Positions 21,535 through 23,847 of a stretch of DNA of 64,000 nt are shown piece after piece. Source of the DNA: Niabella sp. (GTDB lineage Bacteria; Bacteroidota; Bacteroidia; Chitinophagales; Chitinophagaceae). Below the pieces are notes generated by a model. That model did not search any database, was not told the DNA's origin, and worked only from the letters and a program-made list of their open reading frames with translations. The position numbers and the translations under genes were made by a program. Within the stretch, counting starts at the first letter, position 1. Each line of letters opens with the position of its first letter. The stretch spans positions 59,960 to 123,959 of the forward strand of contig JAPUDO010000011.1 of NCBI GenBank assembly GCA_027493055.1, read 5' to 3'.

Positions 21535-22542
21535 TTACACGAGATTATTTGCTACAAGATATTCTGCAATCTGTACGGCATTGGTAGCAGCACCCTTGCG
21601 CAGGTTATCGCTTACCACCCACATATTTAAAGTTTTAGGCTGGGTTTCATCTCTGCGGATGCGCCCTACAAATACTTCATCTTTTTCATGTGCATCCATG
21701 GGCATGGGATATTGCTGGCTGGCCAGGTCATCCACCACTACTATTCCCGGCGAGCTTTCCAGCAGGTCCCTGACTTCTGCCAGATCAAACTCATTTTCAA
21801 ATTCAATATTCACGCTTTCACTGTGGCCGCCCATTACAGGTATGCGCACTGTGGTAGCCGTAACTTTAATGTTATCATCCCTCATGATCTTTTTGGTTTC
21901 ATTCACCATTTTCATTTCTTCTTTGGTGTAACCATTATCTGTAAATACATCAATCTGGGGAATCACATTCAGGTCAATAGGGTATTTATAAGCCATAGGA
22001 TATTCGGCTTCTTTTCCTTCTACCGATTTGGTCCTTTCCCCCATTAGCTGGTCAACCGCTTTTACACCGGTCCCTGTTACACTTTGATAAGTGGAAACCA
22101 CTACCCTTTTTATTTTATACTGCTTGTGCAAGGGAGCCAGCGCTACTACCATTTGTATGGTAGAGCAATTGGGATTGGCTATAATTTTATCGTTGGTAGT
22201 TAAAACATCTGCATTAATCTCTGGTACCACCAAAGGTTTGGCGGGGTCCATTCTCCAGGCAGAGGAGTTATCTACTACTGTAATTCCTGCAGCAGCAAAC
22301 TGAGGTGCCCACTCTGTAGACGTACTGCCTCCTGCCGAAAATAAAGCTACAGCCGGTTTGGCGGTAATAGCATCGGCCATGCTTACCACTTTATATTTTT
22401 TACCTTTAAACTCCACTTCTTTTCCCACACTTCTTTCAGATGCTACGGGAATAAGCTCCGTAACAGGAAAATTTCTTTCGGCCAGTACCTGTAACATTTT
22501 GGTGCCTACAAGGCCGGTAGCGCCCACAACTGCAACTTTCAT
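21535..22542 (-). CDS. asd: Aspartate-semialdehyde dehydrogenase
   Basis: A 335-residue NADP-dependent enzyme making aspartate semialdehyde, the branch point to lysine (and meso-diaminopimelate), threonine, isoleucine and methionine. It has the N-terminal Rossmann motif VGATGLVGTKM, the catalytic Cys126 in ANPNCSTIQ, and GGHSESVNIEF with the substrate-site residues. It is of normal length and starts MKVAVVGATG. About 190 bases upstream is a canonical promoter. Between promoter and gene lie a short Lys/Thr/Ile-rich open frame, an intrinsic terminator and a REP-like palindrome, so the gene is very likely controlled by transcription attenuation. Confidence 0.96.
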   Translation of the reverse strand: MKVAVVGATGLVGTKMLQVLAERNFPVTELIPVASERSVGKEVEFKGKKYKVVSMADAITAKPAVALFSAGGSTSTEWAPQFAAAGITVVDNSSAWRMDPAKPLVVPEINADVLTTNDKIIANPNCSTIQMVVALAPLHKQYKIKRVVVSTYQSVTGTGVKAVDQLMGERTKSVEGKEAEYPMAYKYPIDLNVIPQIDVFTDNGYTKEEMKMVNETKKIMRDDNIKVTATTVRIPVMGGHSESVNIEFENEFDLAEVRDLLESSPGIVVVDDLASQQYPMPMDAHEKDEVFVGRIRRDETQPKTLNMWVVSDNLRKGAATNAVQIAEYLVANNLV

Positions 22543-22573: not shown

Positions 22574-22605
22574 CTCACCCTCTCCTTTGGAGAGAGAAGG
22601 GTGAG
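22574..22605. repeat. REP-like palindrome in the asd leader
   Basis: CTCACCC (22574-22580) pairs with GGGTGAG (22599-22605), with an inner TCTCC-TTT-GGAGA stem. It lies between the attenuator U-tract and the asd start codon, and belongs to the same family as the leuS and 41.3-41.7 kb palindromes. Confidence 0.75.
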
Positions 22606-22608
22606 GCC

Positions 22609-22638
22609 AAAAAAAACCTTCCGTTTGTACGGAAGGCC
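22609..22638 (-). terminator. Attenuator terminator in the asd leader
   Basis: On the minus strand the RNA reads CCUUCCGU (22636-22629), a 4-base loop, ACGGAAGG (22624-22617), then eight U (22616-22609). It is a perfect 8-bp stem with a U-tract, located about 67 bases upstream of the asd ATG and after the promoter, so it must be read through for asd expression. Confidence 0.9.
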
Positions 22639-22683
22639 TGTTTAAAAAATTTTATGTCTGCACACAAAAACCACAACCTTCCG

Positions 22684-22725
22684 CTAAGGATGTTTCTTAA
22701 TCTTTGTATGTTTCTTTATTGTCAT
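22684..22725 (-). CDS. Leader peptide of the asd attenuator
   Basis: A 13-codon open frame with its own ATG (complement of 22723-22725) and TAG stop, encoding MTIKKHTKIKKHP. Five codons are Lys, two Thr and two Ile, all end products of the aspartate pathway that asd feeds. It begins seven bases after a canonical -7 box. Directly after the stop is CGGAAGGUU, complementary to the CCUUCCG arm of the downstream terminator. Ribosome release at the stop would cover this segment and let the terminator form. Stalling at Lys, Thr or Ile codons would leave it free to form an antiterminator. It is too short to be found by ordinary gene callers. Confidence 0.8.
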   Translation of the reverse strand: MTIKKHTKIKKHP

Positions 22726-22732
22726 CGGGCTG

Positions 22733-22763
22733 CAAAAATAGAGCGATGATTTAAATCAACAAA
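22733..22763 (-). promoter_or_regulatory. Canonical Bacteroidota promoter for the asd leader
   Basis: On the minus strand, TTTG (22763-22760), a 19-base spacer and TATTTTTG (22740-22733) match the Bacteroidota -33 TTTG and -7 TAnnTTTG elements exactly. The predicted transcript starts only a few bases before the leader-peptide ATG. Confidence 0.8.
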
Positions 22764-22917: not shown

Positions 22918-23847
22918 TTACACTACCGTAGGAATGATGGCATTGTTGAACTCATATTGCGTACCAAACAGCGCATCTGTTTCCATACAGGCCTGCCTGC
23001 TTAAAGACGCTCCATAACTCCTTGAAGCCGGGGTCATATACCCGAATTTGCGTGATACAACTGTTTTGATGGTGGTAACAAAATCTTCTCCTATGGTGTA
23101 AATAGATGAATATTTGCCAATAAGTTGCTGTATTTCAGCTACTTTTTCCAAATGGCCGTCGTTGAAGGTGTCTATAGCCTGTACAAACAGTTCGGGAACA
23201 ATATTATTAAGCCCCGAAATAACACCAGATCCTCCGGAGAGCAAATTGGGTATAAAATACTCATCAAAGCCGGAAAGTACCTGGAAATCTGGCCTTATGG
23301 CTTTCACTTCCCGGATAATGGCACGGGTATGAGATAAAGTATCTACAGTATCTTTTATTCCCACAAAGTTGGGCATTTCTGCGGCCAGTGCCGCAACCAG
23401 TTTGGCATCCAGGCTACATCCTGTGCGGGCCGGAAAGTTATAGGCCAGCCATTTGCCCTCTATGGCGCTTCCTATTTGCAGGTAGTATTCAAACATTTGG
23501 TTGTACGTTTGGCCAAAGTAGTAATGAGGAAGAAACATTACTGCATCATACCCAACGGTATAGGCCCTGTCTGCCAACTGTTTCAGATCGTCTATGCATG
23601 TGGAAGATACATTCGCTACCAAAGGTATATCGGTCATATTCCTGGCTTCGTGTATCAGTTGTAACTTTTCATTCTGGTTAAGCGAAGTAAACTCGCCAAT
23701 GCTTCCCATAATAAGGATTACATCTGTACCGGCATCTGTAATTCTGCATAAATGCTTTTCCAATGCCCTGAAATCTAATTTGCCGTTTGTAGTAAATGGT
23801 GTTACTGAAGGACACCATGCACCGGAGAAGATAGACTTTTTATTCAT
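22918..23847 (-). CDS. DapA-family aldolase/lyase
   Basis: A class I aldolase-like TIM barrel of the dihydrodipicolinate synthase / N-acetylneuraminate lyase family, about 309 residues from the in-frame ATG at 23847 (MNKKSIFSGAWCPSVTPF). A longer frame starts at 23877. Expected active-site features are the Schiff-base Lys in FVGIKDTVDTL and the Tyr in LAYNFPARTG, where true DapA usually has YNVPGRTG. MGSIGEFTSL replaces the usual GTTGE-type motif. These differences suggest a catabolic lyase or dehydratase rather than the lysine enzyme, so I give no gene symbol. It lies on the same strand upstream of asd but has a separate promoter region. Confidence 0.82.
   Translation of the reverse strand: MNKKSIFSGAWCPSVTPFTTNGKLDFRALEKHLCRITDAGTDVILIMGSIGEFTSLNQNEKLQLIHEARNMTDIPLVANVSSTCIDDLKQLADRAYTVGYDAVMFLPHYYFGQTYNQMFEYYLQIGSAIEGKWLAYNFPARTGCSLDAKLVAALAAEMPNFVGIKDTVDTLSHTRAIIREVKAIRPDFQVLSGFDEYFIPNLLSGGSGVISGLNNIVPELFVQAIDTFNDGHLEKVAEIQQLIGKYSSIYTIGEDFVTTIKTVVSRKFGYMTPASRSYGASLSRQACMETDALFGTQYEFNNAIIPTVV

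Follow-up and report, generated by a model that had tools for sequence, protein, structure and literature searches.

Attenuation by leader peptides is textbook knowledge for Proteobacteria, whereas for Bacteroidota we found only hints in print. The thrL leader and the his, phe, trp, leu and ilv attenuators of Proteobacteria, considered here from general knowledge of their layout and not by sequence comparison, share with the locus described below a short ORF carrying codons for products of the pathway, a stop codon beside the antiterminator arm, mutually exclusive antiterminator and terminator hairpins, and a hairpin that can form when no ribosome is present. They differ from it in four respects: here the target is asd, the codons are Lys plus Thr and Ile (and Met), translation is predicted to start 2-5 nt from the RNA end, and the antiterminator arm lies inside a predicted protector hairpin.

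Several published observations come closer in phylum or in design. In F. psychrophilum, which belongs to the same phylum, 'strong clues' for leader-peptide attenuation before amino-acid operons have been reported, with structured 5' elements before pheA and hisG, both of which bear leaders in Niabella sp. too; the available sections give no peptide, structure or asd case (PMC9723704). That study also places a TAnnTTTG box at -12 to -5, finds leaderless mRNAs to be 5.5% of those of 890 CDSs, and describes Bacteroidota mRNAs as being without Shine-Dalgarno sequences (PMC9723704). Small ORFs of B. thetaiotaomicron have been called 'reminiscent of leader peptides' (PMC7366714). Mycobacteria carry leaderless cysteine-rich upstream ORFs, which resemble the asd leader in being short and leaderless (a prediction in our case) with codons matching the downstream pathway, but are rich in cysteine where the asd leader carries Lys, Thr and Ile (PMC4633059). 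In the parts available of a survey of Actinobacteria, no conserved terminator hairpins were seen for the cys leaders of Mycobacterium, and in other species lysine genes are assigned riboswitches and those for histidine, threonine and phenylalanine attenuators (PMC1262725).

Here we analyze a candidate attenuator on the minus strand at 22609..22763 of a 64-kb stretch of DNA from Niabella sp. (64,000 nt in all, hereafter the window). Synthesis of lysine, threonine, isoleucine and methionine depends on the asd product. Very probably, the element regulates asd by ribosome-mediated transcription attenuation, with the charged tRNAs of the aspartate family as its signal. This reading is supported by anatomy, conservation, codon content and position, co-variation, and likeness to leaders of other pathways. 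Searches of open-access literature brought up no asd or lysine leader-peptide attenuator by title or abstract start, and we therefore judge the asd case to be a variant of known attenuation: its work is that of classical attenuators, while its centring on lysine, its position before the branch-point gene asd and its predicted start almost at the RNA end seem new. The preliminary description of this DNA had held that a Bacteroidota example for asd is not widely described; that claim is softened by the attenuation already noted in F. psychrophilum, although asd is not named in the parts of that paper available (PMC9723704).

Anatomy of the asd leader

The features of the locus are collected in the table. 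The preliminary description had proposed a TTTG-N19 promoter followed after seven bases by a 13-codon frame, and direct reading bears this out: TTTG is followed by 19 nt, TATTTTTG, 7 nt (CAGCCCG) and the leader ATG, which opens a frame with 5 Lys, 2 Thr and 2 Ile codons and lies 183 nt upstream of the asd ATG. It had also set the segment GCGGAAGG immediately after the stop codon. The adjacency is correct; the first G of that segment, however, is the last base of TAG, and what follows the stop is CGGAAGGTT. The distance from R to T5 is 40 nt, after which come a short loop, T3 and eight T. The eight U described for the terminator therefore stand, whereas the stem of 8 bp does not, since the folded stem has 11 bp.

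Features of the asd attenuator candidate in the Niabella sp. window
Feature	Position	Strand	Basis
-33 element, TTTG	22760..22763	-	read from sequence
-7 element, TATTTTTG, Bacteroidota sigma-A type TAnnTTTG	22733..22740	-	sequence reading
Leader ORF, MTIKKHTKIKKHP, with TAG stop (22686-22684)	22684..22725	-	sequence reading
Putative protector strand P1, CAUACAAAGAUUA, within the ORF	22698..22710	-	fold, partner swaps, 70.8% of aligned cells paired
Putative protector strand P2, UGGUUUUUGUGUG	22661..22673	-	fold, partner swaps, MFE core-linker pairing
R, antiterminator 5' arm, CGGAAGG, adjoining the stop	22677..22683	-	sequence, partner swaps, alignment
T5, terminator 5' arm and also antiterminator 3' arm, CCUUCCG	22630..22636	-	sequence, alignment
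T3, terminator 3' arm, CGGAAGG	22617..22623	-	sequence, alignment
Terminator T-run (T8)	22609..22616	-	sequence reading
asd, aspartate-semialdehyde dehydrogenase, 335 aa, presumed regulated gene	21535..22542	-	NCBIfam

The identity of asd rests on NCBIfam TIGR01296 (454.2 bits, cut-off 324.2) and NF011456 (471.7 bits, cut-off 223). A composite pattern of TTG, TAnnTT[TC]G, ATG, short ORF, arm, complement, arm and T-run occurs a single time in the window, with both strands scanned, at the asd leader, and did not occur in 150 first-order Markov sequences of 64 kb. Folding of the 141-nt leader gave z -2.24 against dinucleotide shuffles, with 4 of 200 shuffles equally stable, which is modest alone; the strong evidence for the attenuator is comparative.

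The spacing of the box suggests a transcription start near 22728 and thus a 5' UTR of about 3 nt in the window. Because the box lies at -12 to -5 in F. psychrophilum (PMC9723704) and the ATG follows close behind it in these leaders, a near-leaderless start, with a 5' UTR of 2-5 nt, is predicted for the asd leader, which is an unusual prediction.

Two neighboring features were seen beside the element. The stretch from the attenuator to the asd start holds a second inverted repeat (CTCACCC..CTCTCC AAA GGAGAG GGTGAG; window 22574-22605, minus strand), which has no T-run. Since the genome has its core 16-mer at just two places, this repeat is not of the high-copy kind; it may act in asd translation. 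Upstream of asd, the neighboring gene (22918-23844, minus strand) encodes a DapA/NanA-family aldolase that scores 149.3 bits with TIGR00674, below the cut-off of 206; the closer dapA match of the Niabella sp. genome is on another contig.

Conservation of the element and its reading frame

We collected 193 asd loci: 3 from a first search, 80 from GTDB contigs and 110 from genomes of the family. The family genomes were the best 110 by score of 185 with an asd match (one with too little upstream DNA was omitted), so this sample favors close asd genes. The asd start was placed in 191 loci, and removal of 2 short and 7 duplicate regions left 182 unique upstream regions. An exact search for arm, complement and arm found 58 of them, including some chance AT-rich matches, and was for that reason replaced by a DNA profile built from 48 seeds, which match by construction. 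With this profile, frame and hairpins proved to be conserved in relatives, the element being present in 126 of the 182 regions (100 of the 104 best-scoring family regions and 26 of the 78 GTDB-set regions). The 52 GTDB-set regions without it include four titled Chitinophaga and one titled Sediminibacterium, and 35 of them are presumably Sphingobacteriaceae or Cytophagales, to judge from the genus names in their titles. A looser rule found no element in any of the 56 regions without a profile match. Among named relatives, Niabella ginsengisoli has the closest asd (94% identical). Its leader peptide, like that of a same-genus genome (L085), is identical to the one in the window, and the remaining upstream DNA looks unlike by eye.

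A covariance model was run on a draw of 394 family genomes, which avoids the bias that comes from choosing close asd genes. At E<=1e-7 it matched in 229 genomes, representing 67 of 101 genera, and not in the other 165, so the family is not uniform. All 10 same-genus genomes among the matches listed carry a match at this threshold, and there is no same-genus genome among the 20 listed of the 165 without one. At E<=0.01, a threshold at which chance matches enter, 85 of 98 genomes matched. The biased family sample and the weaker prevalence in the wider draw bear on the spread of the element and not on its mechanism. Within the Niabella sp. genome itself, 17 of the 18 matches (best E among these 0.0011) were set aside as chance, and 12 of them, when inspected, showed no leader by rule.

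Leader frames were called by a rule blind to amino acids, namely the first ATG starting at most 13 nt past the -7 box and opening 9-32 codons. Such a frame was found in 108 of the 126 elements, two from a wrongly chosen box, and its ATG lies 6-9 nt after the box in 89 of the 108. When the box rule was dropped, 17 of the 18 remaining elements also had an ATG ORF of 9-32 codons (ranked by Lys/Thr/Ile/Met content; a few are doubtful). Without the two wrong box choices, the set for composition held 106 leaders and 1814 residues; TTG was present within the searched range in 99 of these, and 94 of the 106 TTG spacings counted are 19-20 nt.

Lys, Thr, Ile and Met together make up 51.9% of residues in frame versus 20.2% and 23.4% in the two other readings, and average 52.9% per ORF versus 32.9% (sd of mean 0.9) in base-shuffled ORFs. 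The match between codon content and the asd pathway noted in the preliminary description is thus kept across the leaders of relatives. His and Arg codons, which lie outside the asd pathway, are also common in the leader core. The entropy of the three codon positions is 0.55, 0.95 and 1.25 bits, that is, variability rises from first to third position; the out-of-frame readings contain 145 and 87 stops; and in an alignment of 73 leaders with less than 80% identity the length changes of the core are mostly 3 nt.

These coding features bear on whether the element could instead be a structured RNA that binds a ligand, a riboswitch for lysine for example, with an incidental open frame. The first 60 nt and a hairpin are strongly conserved, as a riboswitch would have it; the keeping of start, stop and frame, the 3-nt length changes, the variability toward third positions and the many stops out of frame all speak against it. 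Rfam gave no match at gathering score across the whole 64-kb window, and no Rfam leader family reaches its cut-off on the asd leader. Permissive thresholds yielded nothing relevant: the best leader-strand match was to a Bacillus sRNA (22 bits, cut-off 60), nowhere near a gathering score. A Phe_leader match (29.7 bits) was rejected, being on the opposite strand and far below its cut-off of 55. The lysine riboswitch (L box, PMC1262725) is likewise an RNA device for lysine genes, but in other species, and unlike it the sensor here would be the codons of an ORF. We consider a riboswitch very improbable.

The position of the codons points instead to a ribosome-mediated attenuator. R was located by a GGAAGG-type motif in 101 of the 106 leaders. 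In these, Lys, Thr, Ile or Met codons account for 851 of 1223 codons (69.6%) at least 12 nt before R versus 53 of 512 (10.4%) closer to it. About 12 nt separate the A site from the leading edge of the ribosome; a ribosome stalled at any of the sensing codons would therefore not cover R. The low Lys/Thr/Ile/Met content near R has a second possible cause in the pairing of the adjoining codons, often UUCC, with R, which is seen in the MFE structure of 71 of the 73 aligned leaders folded without the terminator; co-variation between the last codons and R is weak (z -2.0; 38 better and 35 worse than with nearest relatives). In every one of the 101 leaders, the first base of the stop codon falls -6 to +14 nt from R, a placement by which a terminating ribosome would be expected to cover the antiterminator arm.

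Alternative RNA structures and the proposed switch

RNAalifold on the alignment of 73 leaders returned the terminator alone; the antiterminator and the protector were tested as named structures and by partner swaps, in which each strand was paired with its own partner or with those of other species. Of the 9 consensus pairs of the terminator, 7 show one or more double changes. For the antiterminator R:T5, 93.7% of cells are paired and 5 of the 7 pairs have changed on both sides; for the protector as aligned, the values are 70.8% of cells and 5 of 8 pairs. Swaps gave z -13.5 for the terminator, -9.6 for the antiterminator and -7.6 for the ORF-linker protector, versus z 0.6 for the control R x T3. 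The second half of the ORF pairs worse with its own linker than with swapped linkers (z +2.3). A leader's own partner was better than the mean of the partners of its five nearest relatives in 62 (terminator), 53 (antiterminator) and 52 (ORF-linker) of the 73 cases. Among 14 sequences below 62% identity, the swap z was -6.2 for the terminator, -1.8 for the antiterminator, which is weak, and -3.1 for the protector. The pairing of R with CCUUCCG, exclusive of the terminator, was part of the preliminary description and has thus found comparative support; across relatives, frame, stop position, codon content and alternative helices are all kept or co-vary. The protector was not part of that description, nor were the near-leaderless start and the kindred leaders before hisG, pheA and some dapA genes. 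Pairing of core and linker is present in the MFE structure of all 73 leaders folded without the terminator, and the protector hairpin, as a predicted structure, could hide the antiterminator arm.

Stalled ribosomes were modeled by folding the window RNA from 12 nt past the first base of the A site, before T3 is made. The antiterminator formed for all seven stall positions tried at codons 4-11, and with the ribosome at the stop only weak structure was found. Without a ribosome, again before T3, the lowest energy in the window belongs to the antiterminator and not to the protector. In the full-length RNA with a ribosome at codon 8, the terminator reaches -24.5 kcal/mol versus -20.2 kcal/mol for the antiterminator before T3. 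As the terminator is favored in the full RNA and the antiterminator before T3 even without a ribosome, the choice between the hairpins would have to be kinetic.

The same arrangement recurs in many related bacteria, and for this reason the element most likely turns asd on when the amino acids of its pathway are scarce. In the mechanism that we propose, we infer where transcription starts, that the leader is translated, that ribosomes stall on it and respond to amino acids, and that the hairpins are chosen kinetically. Transcription would start about 3 nt before the leader AUG, so that a ribosome could load once the 5' end emerges. With plentiful aminoacyl-tRNAs, the ribosome would reach the UAG and cover R, the terminator would form and the RNA would end near 22609. 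When Lys-, Thr- or Ile-tRNA is short, the ribosome would stall at codons 4-11, masking the ORF strand of the protector and leaving R free; R would then pair with the terminator 5' arm, and asd would be transcribed. If no ribosome loads, the ORF core would pair with the linker, R would be hidden and the terminator would form. The classical attenuation logic of the preliminary description thus appears right in substance, and the response to starvation would follow from it.

The terminator might instead end a separate small RNA or stray transcription, with asd served by a nearer promoter of its own. The 66 nt between the T-run and the asd start leave room for a second promoter, yet the conserved antiterminator and protector pairings would then have no role. 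Moreover, in the four family regions that lack the element, a TAnnTT[TC]G box is seen by eye at about 4, 22, 27 and 31 nt ahead of asd (L157, L159, L191 and L187, respectively), as if the attenuator otherwise parts promoter and gene. A separate transcript is therefore hardly to be expected, and we retain the attenuator controlling asd. In L157, asd itself would be leaderless.

Kindred leaders and what the asd leader senses

Strong extra matches of the covariance model sit before dapA in some genera, and weaker ones lead to hisG leaders with His runs (genes of relatives are named here from N-terminal pieces or after the family used in the search). In a dedicated search the start could be placed in 21 of 30 hisG loci and not in the other 9, and 16 of the 21 have His-run leaders. 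The Niabella sp. genome has a hisG leader, MTKNNVHIHHHFAYLQQ, and a pheA leader, MSTARFFTGFYFSFFYKMRPGIL, both with the arm/complement/arm layout. No leader was seen by eye at its two ilvD loci. Upstream of thrA, Thr/Ile runs occur in 16 of 18 regions, where the run was itself the selection rule and GTG and TTG starts were allowed, and the exact arm/complement/arm layout occurs in none of the 18; the thrA leader is only a lead.

Nascent-peptide arrest, for which the erm and tna leaders are examples, would offer another way to stall: a small molecule or stress, and not codon hunger, would cause the basic peptide KHTKRTKK itself to halt the ribosome. A codon-hunger leader would not strictly require so well conserved a core peptide (His in 49, Thr in 58 and Lys in 64 of the 73 aligned leaders). 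However, much of the conservation of the His codon and its neighbors can be put down to their place in the protector strand, leaders that have lost the motif keep the composition, and the similarly laid-out leaders of hisG and pheA consist of simple codon runs. Arrest by the peptide thus seems quite improbable.

A different question is whether the same attenuator responds essentially to lysine, or to lysine and general translation speed, with chance, history or RNA pairing accounting for Thr, Ile and Met. No residue is more frequent than Lys in the 106 asd leaders (25.1%), 64, 64 and 66 of the 73 aligned leaders retain it at three positions, and dapA, which belongs to the lysine branch, has near-identical leaders in which Lys is likewise retained (mean 5.0 in 9 distinct dapA leaders versus 4.29 in the asd leaders). 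The same dapA leaders are nevertheless poorer in Thr, with 1.22 versus 2.31 per leader (one-sided rank p 4.5e-4, uncorrected for relatedness, as these tests ignore it). In addition, where Thr is replaced at two of its positions, the substitute is mostly Ile (Thr 58 and Ile 10 at one position, Thr 43 and Ile 15 at the second), and divergent asd leaders such as MNTTIITKNSKKHIS and MMNTIITKRAKKRS keep Thr and Ile though the common motif is lost. A signal that is essentially lysine is thus unlikely, and we favor an asd leader that senses the aspartate family more broadly.

The dapA leader is present in just 4 of the 29 loci with a located start, and so is not general (1 of 30 loci was not located, and a match at L268 without a Lys run was not counted); there is none before the dapA of the Niabella sp. 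genome. Other matches lie before further genes. A Lys-rich short frame, IKTIKTKKPYLYG, precedes a lysA-like gene at L253 (G001:C21:55917-56047), its start codon not settled, and another, MTRKLHKSKKHLPNR, precedes a PLP-dependent aminotransferase of unsettled family at L249 (G094:C1:724255-724374). At L248 (G079:C152:864-993) and L261 (G069:C23:302897-303029), attenuator-like matches stand directly before YciA-like hotdog thioesterase genes; their short frames suggest no clear amino-acid pathway, and the family score of the L248 piece is weak (43 bits of 162).

Taken together, we lean slightly toward a wider hypothesis, in which near-leaderless attenuators form a family in the Chitinophagaceae, the asd leader combines signals of Lys, Thr, Ile and Met hunger within a single peptide, and duplicates or parallels before dapA and lysA have been retuned to lysine. 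If this is true, ribosomes would load on the very 5' end of the RNA, and lysine would be sensed by a leader peptide, a job that riboswitches do in the Actinobacteria survey, as far as its available parts tell (PMC1262725). A codon-matched set of leaders across one family would provide testable regulators for the supply of lysine, threonine, histidine and phenylalanine, as well as candidate new RNA families. The asd leader would also lend itself to asking whether ribosomes can load on near-leaderless RNA quickly enough to keep up with RNA polymerase.
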